This document shows positions 2,105 to 17,509 of a stretch of DNA of 34,234 nt, one piece after another; position 1 is the stretch's first letter; every line of letters begins with the position of its first letter. Below the pieces are notes generated by a model. The model saw only the letters and a program-made list of their open reading frames with translations, made no database searches and was not told where the DNA came from. The translations under genes were made by a program, and so were the position numbers. The stretch comes from Desulfoscipio geothermicus. GTDB taxonomy: Bacteria; Bacillota; Desulfotomaculia; Desulfotomaculales; Desulfallaceae. The stretch is taken from assembly GCA_016841905.1 (NCBI GenBank), contig JAENYF010000034.1:1-34234 (forward strand), given 5' to 3'.

Positions 2105-2893
2105 TTACTTAATGGCTTCAATGATATAAGAAGCAATATAGTCTTCATAATGCATATCCGGTGCCCATGACTGGACAATCTCTTTACTGTTATTCTTGGG
2201 GGCCATTTTAATCTTAGTAAAGCCGGCCTTTTGCAGCATGGCTTTGACATCTTCAGCCAGCTCGGCACCGCCAATACAGCAGGCGTTCAATGCCAAATCT
2301 TGTTTTATTTCCTCAGGCAGTGGCGCGGTAGCTACGACATCGGATATGGAAAGCCTACCGCCGGTCTTGAGCACCCGGTAAGCATCATTAAATACCTGCT
2401 GTTTATCCAGGGAAAGGTTGATCACGCAATTCGAGACAATCACATCCACTGTGCCATCGGCTACAGGCAAGTGCTCAATTTCCCCCAGCCGGAACTCTAC
2501 ATTGGCATAGCCGCTTTTTTCAGCATTTCTTCTGGCCAGCTTAATCATATCCGGGGTCATATCAATCCCGATGACATGGCCGGTTTCGCTCACCTGCATT
2601 CTTGCCAGGAAACAATCAAAGCCTCCGCCGCTGCCTAGGTCAACCACTGTTTCCCCTTCTTTAAGCTCCGCGATGGCAATCGGGTTGCCACAGCCCAAGC
2701 CCATGTTGGCTTCCGTCGGCACATTGGCTAAATCGGCTTCGGTATACCCGATTTGCAGAGATGCTTCAGTGACATCCAGCGGCACCGGGCTGCAGCCGCT
2801 ATCGCCGCTGCAGCAGCTTCCCCTGGCCCCGTTTACCGCAATAGCTGAATAATTTTTGCGAATAAATTCCCTTACGGCTTCTTTGTCTTCCAT
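2105..2893 (-). CDS. arsM: arsenite S-adenosylmethionine methyltransferase ArsM
   Basis: Encodes 262 residues. ArsM transfers methyl groups from S-adenosylmethionine to As(III) in the cytosol, giving mono- to trimethyl arsenicals. The SAM-binding motif VVDLGSGGGFDCF lies near residues 83-95. The arsenic-binding cysteines of the family are visible at about C68 (GLGCGNP), C156 (SNCVINL) and C205/C206 (ACCIGG). An extra Cys-rich segment (SCCSGDSGC) is at residues 27-34. The length is normal for bacterial ArsM. The start has GGAAGGTGAT upstream. It is divergent from an arsR, with about 320 bp between them, and the ArsP-type permease beyond arsR fits export of the methylated product. Confidence 0.94.
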   Translation of the reverse strand: MEDKEAVREFIRKNYSAIAVNGARGSCCSGDSGCSPVPLDVTEASLQIGYTEADLANVPTEANMGLGCGNPIAIAELKEGETVVDLGSGGGFDCFLARMQVSETGHVIGIDMTPDMIKLARRNAEKSGYANVEFRLGEIEHLPVADGTVDVIVSNCVINLSLDKQQVFNDAYRVLKTGGRLSISDVVATAPLPEEIKQDLALNACCIGGAELAEDVKAMLQKAGFTKIKMAPKNNSKEIVQSWAPDMHYEDYIASYIIEAIK

Positions 2894-3217: not shown

Positions 3218-3601
3218 ATGGAAAATATCGTGGAAGTATTAAAAGCGCTATCTGACGAAACCCGCTTGCGAATCATCAACCTGCTTTACTGGGGGGAATT
3301 ATGCGTCTGTGACATTATGGAAGTGCTAGATATTACTCAGGCTAAGGCCTCACGGCATCTGGGGGTGTTGCGACGGGCGGGGCTTGTCACAGACCGTAAG
3401 AGCGCGCAGTGGGTTTACTACACCCTTGCTCCACTGGAAAAAAATAAATTTGTGGAAAGTATTATTTTGGATCACCTCCGGCAAACCGCTCTTTATACGG
3501 CTGATTTGCAAAACCTAGATAGCTGGCTGGCTGTAAAAAATAGCGGCCCTCATAAATACTCCAATGGGCCCAAGTGCTGCAATAATAGCCGTAATAAGTA
3601 G
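3218..3601 (+). CDS. arsR: ArsR/SmtB family arsenic-responsive repressor
   Basis: Encodes 127 residues, start preceded by TGAGGAAGTG. It is a winged-helix repressor that leaves DNA when As(III) binds. The N-terminal ALSDETRLRIINLL helix and ELCVCDIMEVL motif (about residues 27-37) place the classic CVC metalloid site at the start of the recognition region, followed by the helix QAKASRHLGVLRRAGLV. The C-terminal tail has a CC pair (KCCNNS) that could add a ligand. It sits between arsM (divergent) and an ArsP-type permease (63 bp downstream, same strand), so it probably controls both. Confidence 0.92.
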   Translation: MENIVEVLKALSDETRLRIINLLYWGELCVCDIMEVLDITQAKASRHLGVLRRAGLVTDRKSAQWVYYTLAPLEKNKFVESIILDHLRQTALYTADLQNLDSWLAVKNSGPHKYSNGPKCCNNSRNK

Positions 3602-3664: not shown

Positions 3665-4669
3665 TTGTCAATCTTTGCCTGGTTAAATGAACAACTGCTC
3701 CGAATGGAGTGGCTGTCCGACCTGGTGACCTTATTGGTTACCAACGGCTTCGGGTTGGATGTAAATACTCAGGTGGGCGGTAGCGTTCATTTTTACATTT
3801 ATGATGTGATTAAAATATTTATACTGCTCTCGGTTCTAATATTTACTCTTTCATATATCCAAAGCTTCTTTCCACCTGAAAAAACCAGAAAGACTCTGGG
3901 CCGCTTTACCGGAATTAAGGCTAATACAATGGGAGCGCTTTTAGGCACGGTCACGCCATTTTGCTCCTGCTCCTCTATACCTTTATTTATTGGCTTTACT
4001 AACGCCGGTCTGCCCATTGGGATTACCTTTTCCTTTTTAATATCTTCACCTCTGGTAGACCTGGCGTCGGTGATCTTAATTGCCAGCATCTTTAATTGGA
4101 AAATTGCATTTGCATACGTGGTTGTCGGCATTATCCTGGCCGTCATCGGCGGCTCTATTATTAATAACGCAAAGTTGGAAAAGTATGTTGAGCCGTTTGT
4201 TTATAACAATACTCTGATTGATACCGACCCTGAAGAAATGACCACTCGTGATCGATTAGATTTTGCTGTTGGGCAGGTTCGGGATATTGTTAAAAGAGTG
4301 TGGCTGTACATTTTTATCGGTGTCGGCATAGGCGCCGCTATCCATAATTGGATACCGGAATCAATTATCAGTGCTCTGCTCGGTCAGGACAAATGGTACT
4401 CTGTACTGCTGGTGACCTTAATCGGTATACCGATGTATGCAGATATTTTCGGTACATTGCCGATTGCCGAAGCCCTTGTGGGCAAGGGAGTGGGACTGGG
4501 CACGGTGCTGTCCCTGATGATGGCAGTAACAGCTCTTTCCTTACCATCACTGATTTTGTTGAAGCAAGTGGTAAAAATGAGACTCCTGGTAGTTTTTGTG
4601 GGGCTGGTTACTGCGGGCATTATTATTATTGGCTATACCTTTAATGCTTTTACTTATCTGTTCATATAA
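3665..4669 (+). CDS. arsP: ArsP-type permease (DUF318/PF03773), Cys form
   Basis: Encodes 334 residues with about eight hydrophobic segments. It starts at TTG, preceded by AAGGGGGTG. The family signature is TPFCSCSSIPLFIGF at residues 98-112, with C100 and C102, and a second conserved stretch GIPMYADIFGTLPIAEALVGKG lies near residue 255. Characterised ArsP members export trivalent organoarsenicals, which fits a position next to arsM; that substrate is inferred here. The residue at C100 is exactly where the paralogous permease at 12914-13846 has an in-frame TGA. A mini-thioredoxin follows. Confidence 0.85.
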   Translation: MSIFAWLNEQLLRMEWLSDLVTLLVTNGFGLDVNTQVGGSVHFYIYDVIKIFILLSVLIFTLSYIQSFFPPEKTRKTLGRFTGIKANTMGALLGTVTPFCSCSSIPLFIGFTNAGLPIGITFSFLISSPLVDLASVILIASIFNWKIAFAYVVVGIILAVIGGSIINNAKLEKYVEPFVYNNTLIDTDPEEMTTRDRLDFAVGQVRDIVKRVWLYIFIGVGIGAAIHNWIPESIISALLGQDKWYSVLLVTLIGIPMYADIFGTLPIAEALVGKGVGLGTVLSLMMAVTALSLPSLILLKQVVKMRLLVVFVGLVTAGIIIIGYTFNAFTYLFI

Positions 4670-5527: not shown

Positions 5528-5624
5528 CTGGCCTCTATTTTTCCGTCGCATGCCGGTAGTTGTTTTCTAATTACATACTGGCGGTGGCTATACTGGCCGG
5601 ATATTTATTTAATTTTTTATTTAA
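5528..5624 (+). pseudogene. relic A: 3' end of a permease gene
   Basis: The bases match the last ~98 bases of the Sec-type permease gene ending at 12914: CTGGCCTCTATTTT, then GGCTATACTGGCCGGATATT versus CTATGCTGGCCGGATATTTC. Translation recovers LASIF, then after frameshifts VAILAGYLFNFLF against the intact VAMLAGYFFNLIF. The hydrophobic N-terminal extension that could be read in front of the next gene is therefore the ghost of this permease tail, not a genuine signal or membrane anchor. Confidence 0.75.
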
Positions 5625-5640
5625 AAAGGGGTATAGAGAT

Positions 5641-5928
5641 ATGGGCAGTTGCTGTGGTTATGATACAACAAAAATCTATAAGCTTGATGTTGACGGGAAT
5701 ATGATCGGGTTAGCGGGTGTGGAGCAGGCTTTTCTTGATGTATTGGCACTTGACTTAAATGGTGATGAAGCTGCTGAAAAACTATTGGAATTAGTGAAAA
5801 AAAGTAATTACGTACCGAAATGCGCAGAAACAGAATACAAGAAGGCAATATATGCTGACTATAAAAAATACATAGCAGATCCAAAAAAGCTGAGGACAAG
5901 TGATTCAGGTGCTTGCTGTCAATTATAG
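5641..5928 (+). CDS. small Cys-rich protein of unknown function, CC form
   Basis: Encodes 95 residues. The ATG at 5641 is preferred: AAAAGGGG lies just upstream and the N-terminal match to the paralogue at 6078 begins here. A longer start at 5560 only adds permease relic. Two CC pairs sit at the ends, GSCCG (residues 4-5) and GACCQL (92-93), with C61 between. The core KIYKLDVDGNMIGLAGVEQAFLDV and the helix EAAEKLLELVKK suggest a compact cytoplasmic fold. I do not recognise the family. The CC pairs and the metalloid-gene neighbours suggest thiolate binding of a metalloid, which is inference. Its paralogue carries TGA at the second Cys of the C-terminal pair. Confidence 0.75.
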   Translation: MGSCCGYDTTKIYKLDVDGNMIGLAGVEQAFLDVLALDLNGDEAAEKLLELVKKSNYVPKCAETEYKKAIYADYKKYIADPKKLRTSDSGACCQL

Positions 5929-6077: not shown

Positions 6078-6374
6078 ATGAGCTGTAGTGATCCTAATAC
6101 ATCAAAAATATATAAGCTAGACGTTGGCGGAGATATGATAGGATTAGCTGGAGTAGAGCATGCTTTTCTTGAGGTAATGAAACTTGGCTTAACGGGTGAT
6201 GAAGTTGCTAAAAAATTATTAGAAATAGTTGGTAGAAGAAATTTTATCCCTGAAAGTGCTGAAAGGCAATACAAGTATGCTCTATATTTGGCATATAGAA
6301 ACTATATATCTGATCCAGCTACGGGAAAAAAGGCCATGGAATTTGAGCAGCAACCAGCATGTTGAGACACTTGA
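6078..6374 (+). CDS. small Cys-rich protein paralogue, possible C-terminal Cys-Sec
   Basis: Encodes 95 residues to the first TGA (6363-6365), or 98 if that TGA is selenocysteine and the next in-frame TGA (6372-6374) is the stop. GGAGGGG lies about ten bases upstream of the ATG. It matches the gene at 5641 throughout (KIYKLDV.G.MIGLAGVE.AFLEV, LLEIV). The paralogue ends GACCQL; this one ends PAC, TGA, DT, so TGA falls on the second Cys of the CC pair. A strong hairpin with a GGT loop follows 28 nt after the TGA. A C-terminal Cys-Sec pair recalls thioredoxin reductase. Evidence is good but the read-through tail is only two residues, so the TGA may be a plain stop. Confidence 0.6.
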
Positions 6375-8122: not shown

Positions 8123-9535
8123 TTAACTCTTGTCCACCGGGTCCATGTGGATGGCCAGGCCCAGCGCTCCCTGTGCTGTCTCCAATATGGCTTCCGACAA
8201 AGTAGGATGGGCGTGGATGGTTTTCATGATACCCTTAACGCCTATCTTATTTTGCATAGCCAGGGCAATTTCGGCAATGAGATCCCCGGCATGCAGCCCG
8301 ACAATATGCCCGCCCAGGAGCTGTTCGGTTTTGCTGTCTATCACAAGTTTAACCATACCCTCCCAATCGCTTAGCGCCTGGGCCATGCCCAGCGACTTAA
8401 AGGGGAAAGTGACTGATTTGACATTAAACTGTGCTTTGGCCTCTTCCTCGCTTAGCCCCACCGCAGCGAATTCAGGGTTGCTGAACACACAGCGGGGCAC
8501 CACCCGGTAATCCATAGCTGCCGGGCGCCCCAGTGCGTGCTCGGCGGCTGTAATCCCTTCAGCAAAGGCCCCGTGGGCCAGCCAGGTTTTTCCGGCCAGA
8601 TCGCCCGCCGCGTATACACCGGGCACTCCGGTGAGCATGTGTTCATCCACCTGGAGTGGCTTACCGTCCACCGGCAAGCCGATATTTTTCAGGCCGATGT
8701 TCTCTGCATTGACTCTGCGGCCTGCGGCCTGCAGCAGCTTTTCCGCCGACAGGGTGTCACCCCCGGCCAGAGTAATCGTAACATTTTGGGCGCCATGCAC
8801 CTGCTCCACCCGCTCCACTTGCACACCGGTCAGCACTTTAACCTTGCGGTGTTTAAGCAAGGATTGCAGGTAAACAATCGCTTCGGCATCTTCCCGTGGC
8901 AGAATTCGGTCTTCCCTTTCCAGCAAGGTGACCTTGCTGCCCAGTTCGGCCATAATCACCGCCATCTCCACGCCCACAGCCCCACCGCCCAGCACCAGCA
9001 GCGAAGCAGGTGCCGTGGATATTTCGAGAATATCGTCGGTGGTCAGCACTGCCGGCAGATCGCCGGCCAAGAAGCCGGGGCGGGATGTACGGGAACCGGT
9101 GGCCAGCACCACTTTGCGGGCGTAAACTTTGGTTAGCTCATCCTCTCCGTTAACTTCCAGGACTCCGGGCTCTAGCAAACGCCCTGCCCCCTGGTACAAG
9201 TCGATCTTGTTATGATCTAATAAGTACTCGATTCCCCCGCGCAATAGTTCTACCACCCTGTTTTTACGGGCAATCATGGCCGGTATGTTGGGAGAAACGT
9301 TTTCCACATTGATCCCGAAAGACCTGCTCTTGCGGGCCAGGCGTAGCACTTCCACCGAGGCTCTCAGGGCTTTGGTGGGAATGCAGCCGCGGTTGAGGCA
9401 GACACCACCTAGGTATTCCTGTTCCACCACCGCCACCTTGCCGCCGAGCTGGGCGGCGCGGATGGCACCCTGGTAGCCGGCAGGCCCGCCGCCCAGAAAA
9501 ACGATATCATAACATTTGGGGGCATTTTCCGCCAT
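8123..9535 (-). CDS. lpdA: dihydrolipoyl dehydrogenase
   Basis: Encodes 470 residues, start preceded by GGAGGTACACC. It oxidises dihydrolipoyl groups and passes electrons through FAD to NAD, or runs in reverse to reduce a lipoyl carrier. Visible parts: FAD site FLGGGPAGYQGAIRAAQLG (residues 13-31), redox-active disulfide GGVCLNRGCIPTKAL (C46, C51), NAD site LLVLGGGAVGVEMA (about 180), second FAD site GVYAAGDLAG, and active-site HAHPTLSE near 440. It closes an operon with a GcvH-like carrier, acr3 and arsR, 41 bp behind arsR. No lipoate-dependent dehydrogenase E1/E2 or glycine cleavage genes are nearby, so its substrate is probably the GcvH-like protein. Confidence 0.93.
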   Translation of the reverse strand: MAENAPKCYDIVFLGGGPAGYQGAIRAAQLGGKVAVVEQEYLGGVCLNRGCIPTKALRASVEVLRLARKSRSFGINVENVSPNIPAMIARKNRVVELLRGGIEYLLDHNKIDLYQGAGRLLEPGVLEVNGEDELTKVYARKVVLATGSRTSRPGFLAGDLPAVLTTDDILEISTAPASLLVLGGGAVGVEMAVIMAELGSKVTLLEREDRILPREDAEAIVYLQSLLKHRKVKVLTGVQVERVEQVHGAQNVTITLAGGDTLSAEKLLQAAGRRVNAENIGLKNIGLPVDGKPLQVDEHMLTGVPGVYAAGDLAGKTWLAHGAFAEGITAAEHALGRPAAMDYRVVPRCVFSNPEFAAVGLSEEEAKAQFNVKSVTFPFKSLGMAQALSDWEGMVKLVIDSKTEQLLGGHIVGLHAGDLIAEIALAMQNKIGVKGIMKTIHAHPTLSEAILETAQGALGLAIHMDPVDKS

Positions 9536-9576
9536 GTGGTGTACCTCCTTGCTTCGTCCATTACGCTGCTCACCGG

Positions 9577-9945
9577 TTAATTGACTTTTTTGCTGTTAAA
9601 GGGCAACATTTCATCTTCAATGCGCATGCAAGCACCGTAATTGCGCTCCGTTTTCCGGTTGGCCAGGTTGTCAGCTATTTGGGCAAATAAGCCGTTATTA
9701 ACAGCTGCTAGCCTTAGCTTAAAAACATTTTCATTCAAGGAATAAAACACCCAACGGCCATCTTTGTCGTCAAGTACAAGATTGCTTTTCCTTAAAATCC
9801 TGAGGTGGTGAGAAACAGCCGGCTGGGACATAGCCAGCTCTTCCATAATTTCACAAACGCACAGATCCTGCCTGGATAACATCAAGATAATTTTCAACCT
9901 GGTTTCATCAACTATAACCTTTAAAAAATCCAACATTTCTTTCAT
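9577..9945 (-). CDS. arsR: ArsR family arsenic-responsive repressor (second copy)
   Basis: Encodes 122 residues. The ATG at 9945 is chosen because TTGGAGGAAAT precedes it; the longer open frame up to 10065 overlaps acr3. It is a winged-helix repressor with VDETRLKIILML, the metalloid site DLCVCEIMEEL, the recognition helix QPAVSHHLRILRKSNLV and the wing DGRWVFYSL. A C-terminal Cys (NYGACMRI) may add a third ligand. It lies 61 bp after acr3 and 41 bp before lpd, so it is an internal operon gene and probably autoregulates the promoter at 11807-11835. Confidence 0.92.
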   Translation of the reverse strand: MKEMLDFLKVIVDETRLKIILMLSRQDLCVCEIMEELAMSQPAVSHHLRILRKSNLVLDDKDGRWVFYSLNENVFKLRLAAVNNGLFAQIADNLANRKTERNYGACMRIEDEMLPFNSKKVN

Positions 9946-10006
9946 GGTATTTCCTCCAAAATATAGTGCCGGGAGAAGCGAGTGCCTCCCTGCTAACGAC
10001 TCGCTG

Positions 10007-11071
10007 CTACCTGGCCGGAAACGACTGTTGGTCAAAATATTTCTGTTTAAAAGATAGAGCAACACTGACTAGCCAGATCATAACGGGCACTTCAATCAGC
10101 GGGCCGATTACCGCGGTAAATGCCTGGCCGGAATTTATGCCGAATACGGCTACGGTTACGGCAATAGCCAATTCAAAGTTATTACTGGCCGCGGTAAAGG
10201 AAAGGGTAGTGGTTTGCTCATAGTTGATGCCCAGCTTTTTGCTCATGAAGAATGAAAACAAGAACATCATTAAGAAATATAGGGTCAGCGGTATGGCAAT
10301 CCTAACCACATCCATCGGCAGGGCAACGATATACTCGCCCTTTAAGGAGAACATGACGAAAATAGTAAACAGCAAAGCTATTAAGGTTGAAGGGCCGATT
10401 TTGGGCATAAACTGTTTGTCATACCACTCCTTGCCCTTTATCGGCATTAAGGTAAACCGGGTGATAACGCCCGCTATAAAAGGTATACCGAGGTAAATAA
10501 ACACACTCTTGGCCACCTCGGCCATCGAAATATTTACTTCCAAAGATTCCAGACCGAACCACCGGGGCATGATGGTGATAAAAAAGTACGCGTAAATCGA
10601 GAAGAAAATCACCTGAAAAATAGAGTTTAGAGCAACCAGGGCGGCAGCGTACTCGGAATCACCTCTGGCCAGCGTGTTCCACACGATCACCATCGCGATA
10701 CACCGGGCCAAGCCGATCAAGATCAGGCCCACCATGTATTCAGGGTAGTCCCTTAAAAATATGATGGCTAGAAAAAACATCAACAGCGGTCCGATAATCC
10801 AGTTCTGCACCAGGCTCAGCCCCATGACCCGGCCATTGGTAAACACTTTTCCGATTTCCTCATACTTTACCCTAGCCAGAGGCGGGTACATCATGATGAT
10901 CAGGCCGATGGCAATGGGGATATTGGTGGTGCCTACCTGGAACCGCCCCCAGAAGTCGGCGATTTGTGGGTAAAGATAGCCACCACCCACGCCAATGGCC
11001 ATTGTCAGGAAAATCCATAGCGTTAAATAACGGTCGAGAAAATTCAGTTTGCCGGTTATTGAATCAGCCAT
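10007..11071 (-). CDS. acr3: arsenite efflux transporter, ACR3 family
   Basis: Encodes 354 residues with about ten hydrophobic segments. It exports As(OH)3 across the cytoplasmic membrane using the proton gradient. Family hallmarks include the conserved Cys in [13 protein letters not shown] (about residue 133), [18 protein letters not shown] near the N-terminus and [17 protein letters not shown] (about 295). The last is the discontinuous helix shared with bile-acid/sodium symporter relatives. It sits between the GcvH-like gene (85 bp upstream) and arsR (61 bp downstream). Together with ArsM and ArsR it establishes arsenic as the substrate context of this region. Confidence 0.95.
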
Positions 11072-11156
11072 GCATTTTATTCCCCTATCATATAAAATAT
11101 ATCATCCTTATTCAATCATATCATTTAAGTCTGAACCATTTTAATAAAATTAAACA

Positions 11157-11663
11157 TTAATAAAACTCAATATCCTTGCCTTCATCTATAAATTTCTTTA
11201 TTACTATTTTAATCTTTTCTTCCATTATTGGGTAATAAGTTTTAGCATCCATTAGTTTCTGCTTTTCTTCAGCCCAGTTGGTAGGTTGAATTTTGCATAT
11301 CCAGCCTTCACCATAAGGGTCACGGTTGATTTGTACCGGGTCCTCTTCCATGTTGTCGTTGACATCCTTGATGACGCCACTTACCGGCGAAGTTAAGCCA
11401 ACAACAGTTTTGGCTTTTTTAGTGGGTTTTTTGGCTTCCAGGGTGCCTATTTCCCCACCCTCTTCAACTTCACTGCCGGCTTCACTAATCTCTGTAACCA
11501 TTACCATGCCACCGGTTGTCTGCAGATAATCGGTAACTCCTACCTTAATTAATCCGTTATCTTCCTCTTTTGCCCAGCACTCATCCTTGTGGTAAAGATA
11601 ATCTTCCCTAACCCGGAAAACAAACTTATCATAGACAAATTCCAAATACCCTTTTCCGCCCAT
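11157..11663 (-). CDS. GcvH-like lipoyl carrier protein of an arsenic operon
   Basis: Encodes 168 residues; normal GcvH is about 125-130. The core matches GcvH: IKVGVTDYLQTTGG, then EEGGEIGTLEAKK, TSPVSGVIKDVN and DPYGEGWICKI. The lipoylation lysine is probably K85 in KAKTVV, which aligns with the GcvH pattern VKAV before SPVSG; a Lys-rich insertion (EAKKPTKK) precedes it. N-terminal residues 1-35 and a ~40-residue C-terminal helix are extra. There are no glycine cleavage partners, but lplA lies upstream and acr3, arsR and lpd downstream. A dedicated dithiol carrier for arsenic or a redox partner is inferred. It has its own promoter. Confidence 0.85.
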   Translation of the reverse strand: MGGKGYLEFVYDKFVFRVREDYLYHKDECWAKEEDNGLIKVGVTDYLQTTGGMVMVTEISEAGSEVEEGGEIGTLEAKKPTKKAKTVVGLTSPVSGVIKDVNDNMEEDPVQINRDPYGEGWICKIQPTNWAEEKQKLMDAKTYYPIMEEKIKIVIKKFIDEGKDIEFY

Positions 11664-11750
11664 CTGAAAACGCTCCTTTTCGATTCTTCTTTGTTAAGTT
11701 GTTCCTTAACGGAGCCGATAAAAATTCCGACCAATCCGCTTCCTATACTT

Positions 11751-11835
11751 ACATAAAATATTATTTATGTATCCATGTAAAATACGTCATATAAAAGATT
11801 ACTTATATAATAATTACTTAGCACATTCATGTCAA
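11751..11835 (-). promoter_or_regulatory. promoter and operator of the gcvH-like/acr3/arsR/lpd operon
   Basis: On the minus strand TTGACA (11835-11830), a 17-bp spacer and TATTAT (11812-11807) form a near-consensus vegetative promoter. Just downstream, the inverted repeat ACATAAA (11751-11757) and TTTATGT (11764-11770) is a plausible ArsR site. This shows the downstream four genes can be expressed apart from marR, the permease and lplA. Confidence 0.65.
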
Positions 11836-11842
11836 CAACATA

Positions 11843-12859
11843 TTATAGCTTTAGCGTATTACAACCATCCGATAATAACAAACAGCTCATTAATTGTTCC
11901 GAAGTCAGCCCTCTAATGTATTGCGACACGTCAACCTTTTCCAGCAAAGACAGTAAACCTACCTCTTCGTAATGACGGCCGGTTAGGATGGCCTCTAGTT
12001 CTTGCACCGGCTGCTGCTCAAAAAAATCCCCGTAAAACTTGCACTCCTTGATCAGCCCGTGCTTGACATTGAAATTAATCGTCAGGCTGCCCCCGGAAAA
12101 GGTCAATTCTTTTTGATAAGCAAAGGCGGGAGCACTGCCGAAATTCCAGGCCCAGGTGCTGTACTTGTCTGCCACCAGCCGGTTAACCGCCTGGATATCC
12201 TTTGTGGTTAACTGATACTCCTGATACGACCGGTTATGGTAAGCAAAAATGCTTTTAGCCAGCATCTGCTTAAAGGTAGGCAGACTCATGCCGTCCGGCA
12301 GGTAGGGCTTGAGGTTGGTTACCAGACTTTGCACTGATCTTACTGCTCTGGATACGTATTTCTTTTTCGGCTTTAAAGCCTGGCCAAGCACGGCAAGATC
12401 GCTATCAAATAAAATGGTTCCGTGATGTAAAAGAGTGTTCTTATAGAGATACTGGGCGTTGCCGGAAAATTTCTTATAGTCCACGCCGATATCATTTCTG
12501 CCGTTAAATTCTGCCCGCACGCCCAAAGTGCTTAAACAATAAATGATCGGCTCGGCCAAAACAGAAAAATCAGTAGTAGCAAAATTATCACGGTTAAGGA
12601 GAAAAGTGAAATTAAGGTTGCCCGGATCATGATAAACCGCCCCGCCTCCGGTAAGCCGGCGCACCACCTGGATGTGGTTTTCCTGCACATAGGGGTAGTT
12701 GATCTCCGCCAGTGCGTTCTGGTGCTTACCAATGACGATGGTAGGCGCATTTTGCCAGAGAATCAATTTTTCATCGTCAAGAGCAGCCTGTTTCATTAAA
12801 TACTCTTCCAGGGCCAGGTTAAAGTAGGGATCGTTACTGTTGTTGATAATGTTCAGCAT
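11843..12859 (-). CDS. lplA: lipoate-protein ligase A
   Basis: Encodes 338 residues. The ATG at 12859 is chosen because GGAGGTG lies 6 bases upstream; earlier in-frame codons lack this. LplA activates lipoate with ATP and attaches it to lysine of carrier proteins. The motifs RRLTGGGAVYHDPGNLNF (about residues 68-85), WQNAPTIVIGKHQN and GVDYKKFSGNAQ (catalytic lysine region) are present, and the C-terminal accessory domain spans about 250-338. It is 54 bp behind the permease gene and 179 bp before the GcvH-like gene, its obvious substrate. Confidence 0.92.
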   Translation of the reverse strand: MLNIINNSNDPYFNLALEEYLMKQAALDDEKLILWQNAPTIVIGKHQNALAEINYPYVQENHIQVVRRLTGGGAVYHDPGNLNFTFLLNRDNFATTDFSVLAEPIIYCLSTLGVRAEFNGRNDIGVDYKKFSGNAQYLYKNTLLHHGTILFDSDLAVLGQALKPKKKYVSRAVRSVQSLVTNLKPYLPDGMSLPTFKQMLAKSIFAYHNRSYQEYQLTTKDIQAVNRLVADKYSTWAWNFGSAPAFAYQKELTFSGGSLTINFNVKHGLIKECKFYGDFFEQQPVQELEAILTGRHYEEVGLLSLLEKVDVSQYIRGLTSEQLMSCLLLSDGCNTLKL

Positions 12860-12913
12860 AGTGACACCTCCGCTTGGCAAGCTACGTTGAATTGAGTTAT
12901 ATCTGCTGCAAGC

Positions 12914-13846
12914 TTAAAATATCAGATTAAAGAAATATCCGGCCAGCATAGCCACAGTCACTATGGTAACCACAAATGCAATGATCAACTTGCGACGGAA
13001 AATGGAGGCCAGAATAATAACTTCCGGAATACTTGCTCCGGCACCGCCGATAATCAGAGCCATTACCGACCCGATACTCATACCTTTGCCTATGAGCACA
13101 TAACTGATGGGTATGATGGTTTCTGCTCTGATGTACATTGGTATGCCAATCACCGCTGCTACCGGTATGGCTAGTGGATTGCCGGGTCCAGACAATTTCA
13201 TGATCAGCGAATCCGGTACGAAGCCATAAATAAAGGACCCAATAGCTGCGCCCAGCATCAAGTAGAGAAAAACCTGCCGGAACAATGACCAGGCAGCCTC
13301 ACCGGCCTGCTTTAATTTAATTTTCATAGTATCTGGTTCCGGTTCAGCAGTTAAGTCAAGTGCCAGCATCTCTCCAGCAGTGTCGCCGCCCTTTTGGATA
13401 TACACTTTTTTATACTGGTCGGCCAGCCCTAATTTTTCCCACAGCATTCCAATAAAAACTGCAGCTATAAAAGTGATAGCAGCATAAGCTGCGGTAACTT
13501 TTAAACCCAGCAGACTCAAAAACAAAGCTATGATAACAGGGTTTAAAAGCGGTGAAGCGATTAAAAAAGACATGGTTGCTCCAAAGGGAGCACGGGCGTT
13601 TAACAGTCCTACCAGGACAGGTATGGTTGAGCAGCTTCAAAAAGGAGTAAGTGCCCCCAATGCGGCCCCGATGATATTGCCAATGAATTTTTTCTGCCTG
13701 GATATTACTTTCTGGACAGTCTCAGGTGGTATAAATTCTTGCAGCAGCCCAACCAGAAAGGAAATGCCGACAAATAATAGAATTAGTTCCCCGGCGATAA
13801 CCAGGAAAAATCTACCTGCGTCGGCTAAATTATTTAACTCAAACAT
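12914..13846 (-). CDS. ArsP-type permease with in-frame UGA (candidate selenoprotein)
   Basis: Encodes 310 residues if the TGA at 13639-13637 is selenocysteine (U70). It starts at ATG 13846 behind GGAGGTGGCC. Residues 66-84 read LTPF, U, SCSTIPVLVGLLNA; the paralogue at 3665 has VTPFCSCSSIPLFIG, so TGA replaces the first Cys of the CxC motif. The frame is continuous on both sides, with MSFLIASPLLNPVI following in family register and no indel. A SECIS-like hairpin lies 22 nt downstream. The protein has about eight membrane segments in two halves, with a hydrophilic loop near 150-180. It is between marR and lplA. Substrate is inferred to be a trivalent metalloid. A normal gene caller would split it in two. 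Confidence 0.85.
13604..13620 (-). promoter_or_regulatory. SECIS-like hairpin of the permease
   Basis: In the transcript, GUCC pairs with GGAC (13618-13615 and 13609-13606) around the loop UGGUA (13614-13610), extended past a U-U mismatch by C-G (13620, 13604). The loop starts 22 nt after the UGA, with G as its second base and a GGU core. This fits the bacterial SECIS model. Confidence 0.65.
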
Positions 13847-13926
13847 ATGGCCACCTCCCTCGATTAAAATCCGGTCAAAATTATTCCAGTCGATTCTTGT
13901 AAAATATCCCGGACTAAGTGAAAAAG

Positions 13927-14421
13927 TTAATTATCTATCGAAAATATCGACATGCCGCCTCCCCCCTGTGGTAATTTGCCGTGCAAAAGGTTCTCCTGTC
14001 TATGCACGGAATCTACCAGGATCTCCAAAACAGTTTTGATATTTTTGACCATCGCAGTATTCTGAGTTCTCAGCATTTCAGATACATAAGCCGAATACCG
14101 GTGAACTATTTCCAGGGCTGTTTCCGCCCCTTTGGCAGTTGTATTTACACAGCACACCCGTCCGTCTAATGAAGATATCTCACGTGTCACATAACCCTTA
14201 TTTTCTAAACGATCAATGATTTTGCTGGCCCCGCTCTTGGTAAAATTTAAGGCATGCCCTATTTCCTGCACAGTAATATTTTCCGAATCATTTATTTTTT
14301 TCAAGGCCATATATTCCACTAAAGACAAATCCCCACAGCACTCGCCATTAATGCCATGAGCACCAAAATACCATGATAATTCTTGAATTAGGTTGTAAAT
14401 ATTAACAAAATCTTTATCCAT
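13927..14421 (-). CDS. MarR family regulator with Cys pairs, probable metalloid/thiol sensor
   Basis: Encodes 164 residues, start preceded by AAGGAGC. It is a dimeric winged-helix protein with the helix ITVQEIGHALNFTKSGASKIIDRLENKGYV (residues 49-78 in the family pattern) and the wing SSLDGRVCCVNTTAKG. CC pairs at GECCGDLS (about 28-29) and RVCCVN (about 88-89) are unusual for MarR proteins and could form a metalloid or disulfide switch. It is the first gene of the block marR-permease-lplA and lies 80 bp before the permease. Direct repeats in its own promoter suggest autoregulation. Confidence 0.88.
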   Translation of the reverse strand: MDKDFVNIYNLIQELSWYFGAHGINGECCGDLSLVEYMALKKINDSENITVQEIGHALNFTKSGASKIIDRLENKGYVTREISSLDGRVCCVNTTAKGAETALEIVHRYSAYVSEMLRTQNTAMVKNIKTVLEILVDSVHRQENLLHGKLPQGGGGMSIFSIDN

Positions 14422-14695: not shown

Positions 14696-15496
14696 TTATA
14701 AATTTAACTTTAATAGTTTGATGGCATTCTCACGTCCAATCTTGTATCTGTCGTTCTCACTTATGGTGCAATTGTCAAACCAAACGCAAGCGTCTTCTAC
14801 AGTTTCAAACGGGAAGTCAGTGGCAAATAGCACCCTATCGGAATCAAATTCCATCATTGCATTCAACAGGGATGACGTATGATATTGGCCGCTGGTTGTA
14901 TACCACATGTTGTCCTGTATGTAATCGGGAAGGGGGCGCTTGGCGGGAATTCCTCTGCCGGTTTTGTTGATTCTGTTCTGCGCTCTCCAGATACAAAACG
15001 AGAGGGTCTCACCCAAATGCCCCAGGATATATTTCAGTTTGGGGAATTCATCAAAAACACCGCTGCACATTAGTCTGAGAGTATGAGTGGCGGTTTCTAC
15101 GCCAAAGGCCCAGGCAGCTCCTTCCAGCCATGGGTGGCCTTGCATTTGCTTCAGATTTTCAGGGTGGGGCTCACGGGGATGCATATAGAACGGAACGTCA
15201 AGTTTTTCAAGTTCAGCCCAGAAAGGACGAAAAATCGGATCGTCCAGGTATTTATAGTTGTCTGGAGTGTCAATCTGGGAGAAACCAATCAGGTTTTCTT
15301 CACCTTTCTCACTCCCAAGGACGTACTCTACTAATCTATTTATTATGAAATATAAATGAGCCGGTCTTTGCCCCTGCTCTACTATGACCGCTTCCTTGGG
15401 GTATTTAACATGGGGGCTATTTATGAAAATTTTGTGCCACCTTCTTAAACCAGATGGATCATATATAACTCTATAGTTCAGGAAAATCCCCCCCAT
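14696..15496 (-). pseudogene. chimera: Crp/Fnr sensor-domain fragment fused to an amidohydrolase fragment
   Basis: A 266-residue open frame made of two unrelated parts. Residues about 24-75 (YPKEAVIVEQGQRPAHLYF, then INRLVEYVLGSEKGEENLIGF) look like the cyclic-nucleotide-binding domain of Crp/Fnr regulators. From about residue 78 (IDTPDNYKYLDDPIFRPFWAELEKL) it is the C-terminal two-thirds of an amidohydrolase-2 family protein (VPFYMHPREPHP, LGHLGETLSFCIWRAQNR, RVLFATDFPFE). The metal-binding N-terminus of the amidohydrolase (ExHF/HxH) and the DNA-binding domain of the regulator are both absent. Most likely a deletion joined two gene remnants in frame. Catalysis is unlikely. Confidence 0.65.
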
Positions 15497-15719: not shown

Positions 15720-17509
15720 TTAGGAAAATAAGACCTGTTTAGTGCGCACGTCATAAAGTCCCGAAGGGGTTATTCTGACAAAAGGAACCCCGGTATGGGA
15801 CAAGAAACACAGCGTAACCACTGGGCCGGATTGGCAGCCCCGGTCCAGGAGGTATTGTTCAATCACCTGTAATTCTTTATCCATAGTGCTTACATCCTGG
15901 TCTGACGTAATGCCGCCTACCACCATTGGACATTCCGCCTTAATTTCACCGCCGTCCACTAGCACGAGTCCACCGTTTATCTCTAGCAGCCGGTTAAAGG
16001 CCAGGGCCATATCAGTATCATTATTGCCGATTACATAGGGCGTGTGATGATCATGGGCGGTGCTGGTGGCTAGGCCGCCAATCGAAGCACCGAAACCCTT
16101 CAGAAAGGCGTTGGCAAACCTCTCCCTGCTTATGTGTAGCATACTAATTTTGAGTATATCTTCACCTGAAGCTACGAGGTTACCCGACTTTACCGGCAGA
16201 TTGGCTTGGTCCAGCTTGGTAATAGTGCGGTTAATCACCTTAATCACCGGAACCTGCTGGTATTCCCCCTCAGCTGCGCTGGCCTTAACGGCAAAATGTT
16301 CAGCGGTAGCCGTAAAGGTGGGTACCCGTCCAGGGCGCCAGTCCCGGGTGGTAAAGCTGGGGCAGTTTAAGGGTAATTTTTGTTTTAGCCGTCCCTGCTC
16401 GGCGATGATCTCACCGTTAACCATTACTTTTACCGGGTCCGGCAAAGACGGGTTGGCCAAAAACAATATATCGGCAAAACGCGACGGACCAATCCCCCCG
16501 ACGTAACGGTCAAGCCCCAGGTACAGAGCGGCATTGATGGTTGCCATTTGGATTGCTTTGATTGGCGGTATGCCGTATTCGATAGCCTTTTCCACCAGAA
16601 ATTTCATATATCCCGTGGCTAAAATATCGCTCGGGCTAAACCAGTCAGGGGTTAACATCAACCACCTGGTATCCAGCTCCGGGTCCGAGGTAATAGCGCC
16701 TACCAGGGGTTCCATATCGCTGATAATCGACCCGTGCCGCAGCATAGCGGGCAGGCCAAGATAAACCCTCTGCTTTATTTCTTCGGCGGTCATGGCCTCA
16801 TGGCAAGAGGTTATCCCAACATTGATTAAAGCATTTAGTGTTTCAGGCGAGCAGCCTGCCCCGTGGCCTTCCAGACGCTTATGCAGACGGCGCCCCAGCT
16901 CCAGCTTACTTAATAGCGTTTTATCGAGATCCAGAGCTCTGACAAAGGCAACCAGCTCGCTAATAGCCAGCACCCTGGGGTGCTTAAGAAATTTGGCAAA
17001 CTCCTCCATAGGAAGGCTGTCTTCACCCTCTAGTTCCGGGAAAAGTGGATTGGTGGCTGTAATACAATAAAAGAATTTCAACGGCAGATTTTCTGTCATT
17101 TCCAGTATAGCCTGGATACCCTGAGACTTTAATGCTGCTGTTTGTGATTTGTCTCGGTTAAAATGGTCGTTGTGCCGTGGGGAAGTATTTCGTTGGCCAA
17201 AGCGATGGGATTAGCGCCGAAATCGGTGTGCCCGTGGGGATCGATATAACCCGGCGCCAAGAAGAGGCCTTTAGCGTCGATAACTTCCGTATTTTTACCG
17301 ATCATGTTATCCTTGGTACCCACGTAAGCAATGCGGCTGCCCTTGATAGCCACCTTCAGGCCGGACTGTATTTTGCCGGCGTAGACATTAATTAATTCGG
17401 CATTGATAATGACTTTATCCGCGTAAGCTCTGCCCAAGGGCACTTGAATTAAAGCCTCATACTCTTCCCTATTCATATCATAGAGATCAAACTTAGCATT
17501 CATCTGCAA
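15720..17509 (-). pseudogene. ade: adenine deaminase, single frameshift
   Basis: Adenine deaminase converts adenine to hypoxanthine. The N-terminal part (17509-17129) has GLFLAPGYIDPHGHTDFGAN with the HxH metal site and TTTILTETNH. The remainder (frame ending at 15720) continues ALKSQGIQAILEMTENLP, then GHGAGCSPETLNAL, GITSCHEAMTAEE, ATINAALYLGL and the C-terminal domain with TSTAHDHHTP. The break is at about 17138-17146: one added A in CACAAACAG would restore a ~595-residue protein of normal length and register. This is either a real one-base deletion or a sequencing error in the short A run. All other signatures are intact, so decay would be recent. Confidence 0.8.

Follow-up and report, generated by a model that had tools for sequence, protein, structure and literature searches.

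When a permease gene is interrupted by a single in-frame UGA, is the gene broken, or does it encode a transporter that carries selenocysteine (Sec)? Most known selenoproteins are redox enzymes, and genes of this kind are easily called broken or shortened during annotation. The question is raised here by a gene on contig JAENYF010000034.1 of Desulfoscipio geothermicus (GCA_016841905.1), of which a stretch of 34,234 nucleotides, hereafter the window, was analysed; the open reading frame list of the window shortens the gene at 12914-13846 in just this way. We put the probability at roughly 85% that this gene encodes a selenoprotein permease handling a soft metal or metalloid. The features on which this reading turns are the following.

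12914..13846, minus strand: putative Sec-containing permease of PF03773 (ArsP_1), 310 amino acids by UGA read-through, start ATG 13846-13844, stop TAA
13637..13639, minus strand: in-frame UGA, codon 70, predicted to be read as Sec, aligned with the first Cys of a CxC motif
13634..13636, minus strand: Ser71 codon AGC, directly 3' of the UGA
13631..13633, minus strand: TGC codon for Cys72, the Cys of the U-x-C pair
13854..13860, minus strand: Shine-Dalgarno-like AGGGAGG 5' of the permease ATG, read from the sequence
3665..4669, plus strand: Cys paralogue from another PF03773 branch, with TPFCSCSSIP

A preliminary description of this DNA had reported a minus-strand frame broken only by the TGA at 13639-13637. 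This holds, as 13846-12914 is one ATG-to-TAA frame of 310 residues that needs no indel, and its sole internal stop is the TGA at codon 70, in the context LTPF-UGA-SCSTIPV. In a Pfam search, PF03773 matches residues 9-307 with 199 bits against a cut-off of 32.3 and is covered from position 4 to 293 of 294. The UGA had also been equated with the first Cys of a CxC motif, and the plus-strand permease at 3665 indeed reads VTPFCSCSSIPL at the aligned place; residues 67-73 are T-P-F-UGA-S-C-S in the window permease and T-P-F-C-S-C-S in its paralogue. Apart from residues 70 and 72, the window permease has no Cys-type residue.

In the mechanism that we consider most likely, SelB and tRNA-Sec would decode the UGA as Sec with the help of a short hairpin downstream. 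The product would be an inner-membrane ArsP_1 permease of 310 residues, with the U-S-C motif within the first of two related halves. The permease is predicted to export soft compounds that seek thiols, for example trivalent organoarsenicals. Its Sec-x-Cys pair would be the ligand that captures the substrate inside the membrane, and the selenolate may make exchange faster or tighter than it is with the Cys pair found in relatives. Trivalent organoarsenicals bind two soft ligands, which makes a U-x-C pair a plausible arsenical ligand. Alignment of one half of the permease with the other suggests that they are related (hhalign E about 2e-5, probability 77%), and in this alignment T-P-F-U-S-C-S-T-I-P faces the region P-M-Y-I-R-A-E-T-I-I-P. 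By analogy with other two-repeat transporters, we infer that the facing segments of both halves may form the substrate site. A sequence search for solved structures of relatives found none.

What the permease carries has to be judged mainly from its neighbours, which include the following.

13927..14421, minus strand: MarR-family regulator, directly upstream of the permease
8123..12880, minus strand: arsenic island adjoining the permease, with dihydrolipoyl dehydrogenase, ArsR, ACR3 arsenite exporter, GcvH-like lipoyl protein and lipoate-protein ligase
3218..3601, plus strand: ArsR-family regulator, 5' of the Cys paralogue
2105..2893, minus strand: arsenite methyltransferase (arsM; NF008823, 347 bits, cut-off 263)

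Within about 11 kb of the permease there are arsM, two arsR, acr3 and an ArsE-like thioredoxin. Judged from this setting, the chances that the permease exports an organoarsenical are about even. A transporter for a different soft substrate, be it a metal or a chalcogen compound (organomercury, Cu, Zn, selenium or sulfur species), likewise a selenoprotein and with the arsenic genes as mere neighbours, has lower but appreciable odds. The two NCBIfam matches of the permease, SaoE and the SO_0444 Cu/Zn exporter, point this way, both under their cut-offs, and so does the second-half motif, which is IRAET in the window permease and mostly SNAAG or ADIFG in a second Sec branch of the family described below, so that substrates may differ between branches. 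The arsenic genes around the window permease argue against it, however, as do the arsR or acr3 relatives near the permease orthologue in several other loci.

Expression of the permease is probably under the upstream MarR regulator. A MarR homologue lies upstream of the permease in all four Sec-clade loci; a search of 12 Cys-orthologue loci, several of them short, found none. One of the MarR genes (G002, L046:9089-9580, minus strand) has two in-frame stops. The island at 8123-12880 is possibly a lipoyl-based arsenic handling system; a literature search on a lipoyl-arsenic gene cluster found nothing. Relatives of lplA and gcvH recur in loci L046, L047, L051 and L064. Two related small proteins on the plus strand of the window (5560-5928 and 6078-6365) have no Pfam or NCBIfam match; their relatives, several with CC near the start, recur at Sec or Cys permease loci. 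On the minus strand, an adenine-deaminase-like amidohydrolase (15720-17509) is split by a frameshift and adjoined by an Amidohydro_2 reading (14696-15496) whose match is confined to the later part of the profile.

Returning to the UGA itself, we searched 100 related genomes for orthologues of the permease. Three other congeneric genomes have one (92, 91 and 89% identical), each with a single TGA at codon 70, so that, with the window genome included, orthologues of at least 89% identity have TGA at codon 70 in four of four genomes. Of the three relatives, one is an isolate, Sporotomaculum syntrophicum FB, and two are metagenome-assembled genomes (MAGs) recorded under Desulfoscipio geothermicus; a close orthologue was absent from three further genomes of the genus (G001, G005 and G006) in the same search. 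The next-nearest orthologues, from neighbouring genera and 78-80% identical, have Cys at codon 70. Across the six pairwise comparisons of the four Sec orthologues, dN/dS is 0.075-0.199 3' of the UGA and 0.031-0.119 5' of it, and the sequence behind the UGA is under purifying selection. Other stops or frameshifts in homologues at codon 70, which the preliminary description had named as evidence against Sec, were not seen; the only TAA and TAG observed in relatives sit elsewhere.

These data bear on two further explanations. In one, the locus makes two products: a short peptide from the upstream part and, after a restart at ATG 13573-13571, a separate downstream protein. This ATG is preceded by GGAG (13582-13579), but GGA GCA is also dictated by Gly-Ala codons, and the restarted product would lose the U-S-C motif. 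Moreover, the 21 codons from the UGA to this next ATG, which a restart leaves untranslated, contain 15 base differences between the window and its three congeners, 14 of which are synonymous. We regard this explanation as very improbable. In the other, the TGA is a nonsense mutation in a pseudogene, or an assembly error, and this is slightly harder still to uphold. Broken genes do occur elsewhere in the genome (the frameshifted adenine-deaminase-like gene; a SaoE-like fragment on contig C22), but this stop is common to four genomes, lies in front of sequence under purifying selection, is accompanied by no further stop or indel, and recurs, again as UGA, at the corresponding codon of another PF03773 branch. 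The shared TGA, the low dN/dS and the synonymous differences make a nonsense mutation or sequencing error very unlikely. Two other TGA-bearing PF03773 matches in the genome were rejected as candidates: the match on contig C22 (L062:8605-8995) is the frameshifted SaoE-like fragment, with CSC intact, and the match on C7 (4678-5555) consists of two short open frames, the match reaching an ordinary stop. A plasmid search for the permease gave two weak staphylococcal permease matches only.

The genome also has the means to decode UGA as Sec. selB adjoins selA, a tRNA-Sec gene scores 68.6 bits (UCA anticodon read by eye), and selD (401.6 bits) has its own in-frame TGA within SG-U-AAKIGP, which we take to be the SelD active site. 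All of selA, selB, selC and selD were therefore found, and the absence of selB or selC that would have counted against the preliminary description did not occur. SelB was found in 27 of 27 genomes searched, and as genomes with Cys forms have it too, the presence of the machinery does not discriminate between the two forms. Reading of the UGA by Trp-tRNA suppression or general reassignment, for which we found no supporting point, is extremely improbable, given that UGA ends three of the 27 window ORFs whose stops were listed, that the homologous residue is Cys, not Trp, and that the Sec machinery is complete. Hence, on the conservation of the TGA, the purifying selection, the Sec machinery and the Sec/Cys exchange described below, the gene is almost certainly a genuine selenoprotein gene; Sec insertion as a chemical fact is what we infer from these lines.

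The same codon carries UGA elsewhere in the family. A class-level protein search of 113 genomes gave 76 matches, of which 15 are full-length with one TGA, all at codon 70; the remaining stops are one TGA outside the motif, in a broken copy, one TAA at the alignment end and no TAG. The TAA is assigned to the alignment end since the family-search match is without it. Among the matches listed in the family search, there is one further gene with TGA at codon 70 (G009), and the TGA is at codon 70 in each of the 16 full-length TGA-bearing matches looked up from the class-level and family searches. The broken TGA copy of the class-level search, in G061, was rejected as a Sec candidate as its motif region is missing. 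The sole TAG among the family-search matches listed (G043) belongs to a broken gene of another PF03773 branch, with CSC intact and the TAG in the second half. A scan of named genomes for the motif G-x-x-T-P-F-UGA-x-C-S-x-[IV]-P returned 23 stretches, from Bacillota and two Actinomycetota, against a chance expectation of approximately one (our rough estimate from the information content of the pattern). Merged with the genome loci, these give 24 distinct Sec genes, in all of which the frame stays open for 231-269 residues 3' of the UGA; one of them is cut upstream at the end of its locus.

The preliminary description had suggested looking for exchange between UGA and Cys codons among homologues, and such exchange was found. 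We placed 60 proteins on a tree: the 24 Sec proteins, 30 Cys proteins (those fetched by the searches and fitting the motif, which is no full census) and 6 outgroup proteins. The window Sec group, of four rows (98/99), is nested within a larger group (99/99) that also has 15 Cys rows. A separate branch (98/95) unites the remaining 20 Sec genes and 15 Cys genes. The Sec/Cys label needs six changes on this tree, at least five of them on well-supported branches, where the tree has some long branches and two flagged long-branch joins, and gain of Sec is indistinguishable from loss. The Cys paralogue at 3665 belongs to a group of five whose sister group bears Sec and includes Thermincola MAGs. Desulfoscipio geothermicus DSM 3669 has both forms: Cys in its orthologue of the window gene, and the UGA in a neighbouring gene from the other branch.

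The second PF03773 branch with Sec, larger than that of the window permease (20 genes in loci L066-L088, for example L084:4682-5578 and L071:3242-4204), has members in Pelotomaculum, Thermincola, Desulfotruncus, Desulfoscipio, two Actinomycetota and others. It shares with the window permease the UGA at the identical codon and, in 18 of the 20 genes, an AGY codon after it. Its proteins are only 30-36% identical to the window permease (18 members aligned), and SECIS-like hairpins occur in part of its members, in a register that differs from that of the window gene.

The bases next to the UGA differ between Sec and Cys genes. Of the 24 Sec genes, 22 have AGC or AGT directly 3' of the UGA, one has ACT and one TCG, whereas the aligned codon of Cys genes is TCN in 27 of 30, GCA in three and AGY in none. 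Given that the AGY and TCN codons for Ser are two base changes apart, selection on the bases beside the UGA is indicated, and the pattern points to effects such as weakening termination or shaping a SECIS element. In bacteria, U as the fourth base favours release. Corrected for relatedness, the AGY switch comes down to five supported independent comparisons, of which three or four point the same way and none the opposite way (median p 0.125). Downstream of these bases lies a possible SECIS element.

13606..13618, minus strand: candidate SECIS hairpin GUCCU-GGU-AGGAC, 5-bp stem, 3-nt loop

The stem starts 18 nt after the UGA and the GGU apical loop follows after 23 nt. A hairpin beginning 22 nt after the UGA had been described before; the hairpin is there, but 22 nt is the start of its UGGUA loop and not of its stem. 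All five pairs form in four of four Sec orthologues and in none of the clade's 15 Cys relatives; in the three nearest of the Cys orthologues, the closing G-C pair is all that is missing. The bSECIS model set out in the accessible part of PMC13188914 has a loop of 3-9 nt, a stem of 4-16 bp, a G in the first two loop positions, a spacing of 16-37 nt and an energy of -7.5 kcal/mol or lower. Compared with the model as given there, the geometry of the candidate fits (5 bp, GGU, 23 nt), but its energy of -4.1 kcal/mol, or -5.3 kcal/mol with flanks, is shallower than the limit. The earlier claim of a SECIS hairpin closely 3' of the UGA is therefore sustained as to a GGU loop at a SECIS-like distance and falls short as to energy, and the candidate hairpin is the weakest link of the selenoprotein case.

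A bSECIS-like scan at -7.5 kcal/mol and 16-37 nt picks out 5 of 24 Sec and 4 of 30 Cys genes. When the spacing may reach 50 nt, the numbers are 11 of 24 and 7 of 30. As the scan fails to separate Sec from Cys genes, the limit was not used as proof. Relative to synonymous shuffles, the mean folding z is -1.65 for the 24 Sec genes and 0.03 for the 30 Cys genes. The 63 nt after the window UGA fold no better than their shuffles (z 0.19), and the orthologues of the three congeners have z of -1.91, 0.32 and 0.08, which makes one low value in the window group of four. An Rfam search of 13400-13900 found no SECIS and only a sub-threshold isrA match. For the hairpin of the second Sec branch (19 of 20 genes), cells changed on both sides number 10 against 3.1 in shuffles, with none of 500 as high, whereas pairs changed on both sides (2 versus 1.5) and pair types (9 versus 9.4) are not raised; 12 Cys homologues show nothing above shuffles.

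Taken across the family, these observations suggest a broader idea, which we offer tentatively and at a little under even odds: Sec may have been repeatedly gained or lost at one PF03773 codon, in two deep branches and in a listed SO_0444 form, because a selenolate-thiolate pair would be a better in-membrane ligand for toxic organometalloids, with the AGY codon as an accompanying RNA-level adaptation in more than one branch. If this is true, PF03773 is a recurrent selenoprotein transporter family in which Sec- and Cys-bearing permeases occur side by side in one genome. The window permease, with Sec and Cys two positions apart and no other Cys, would allow a clean test of selenium as a metalloid ligand in transport, and its natural Cys orthologues, 78-80% identical, allow a direct comparison of the effect of one atom.

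How new such a protein is depends on its wider relatives. The preliminary description had held that no PF03773-family selenoprotein was described and that Sec in a transporter would be a new use; neither statement is supported as worded. The accessible part of a 2026 review (PMC13188914) lists a homologous SO_0444 family Cu/Zn efflux transporter (NF033936, WP_014809615.1) as a UxC selenoprotein annotated in GenBank; YeeE/YedE, SaoP and others are also named there as Sec-bearing transport proteins. The parts of PMC12013277 and PMC9312934 available to us hold no such Sec permease, and the branch of the window permease was not found described in the literature searched, whose coverage excludes the Sao-system and later selenoprotein-neighbourhood papers. 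Hence, as far as these sources go, Sec in the wider permease family is already recorded, and the window branch is a variant not found described.

Like the window permease, the SO_0444 selenoprotein form has UxC and, in the part of the review at hand, is a predicted exporter; judged from the LLPxCSCGVIP of SaoE-like relatives, the U of WP_014809615.1 probably lies at the place aligned with Sec70. The window permease is homologous to the SO_0444 family (104.8 bits) but far below its equivalog cut-off of 300, and homologous to SaoE (NF040736, an NCBIfam efflux transporter family) at 124.7 bits, below the cut-off of 325; SaoE-like proteins have a CxC motif where the window permease has UxC. ArsP of Campylobacter jejuni exports trivalent organoarsenicals, not arsenite, according to the accessible text of PMC6205960. 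In that text it resembles the window permease, to which we liken it by family and gene context and not by direct alignment, in being a Pfam ArsP_1 permease encoded among ars genes with acr3 and arsM; the window permease differs from it in having Sec at the first Cys.
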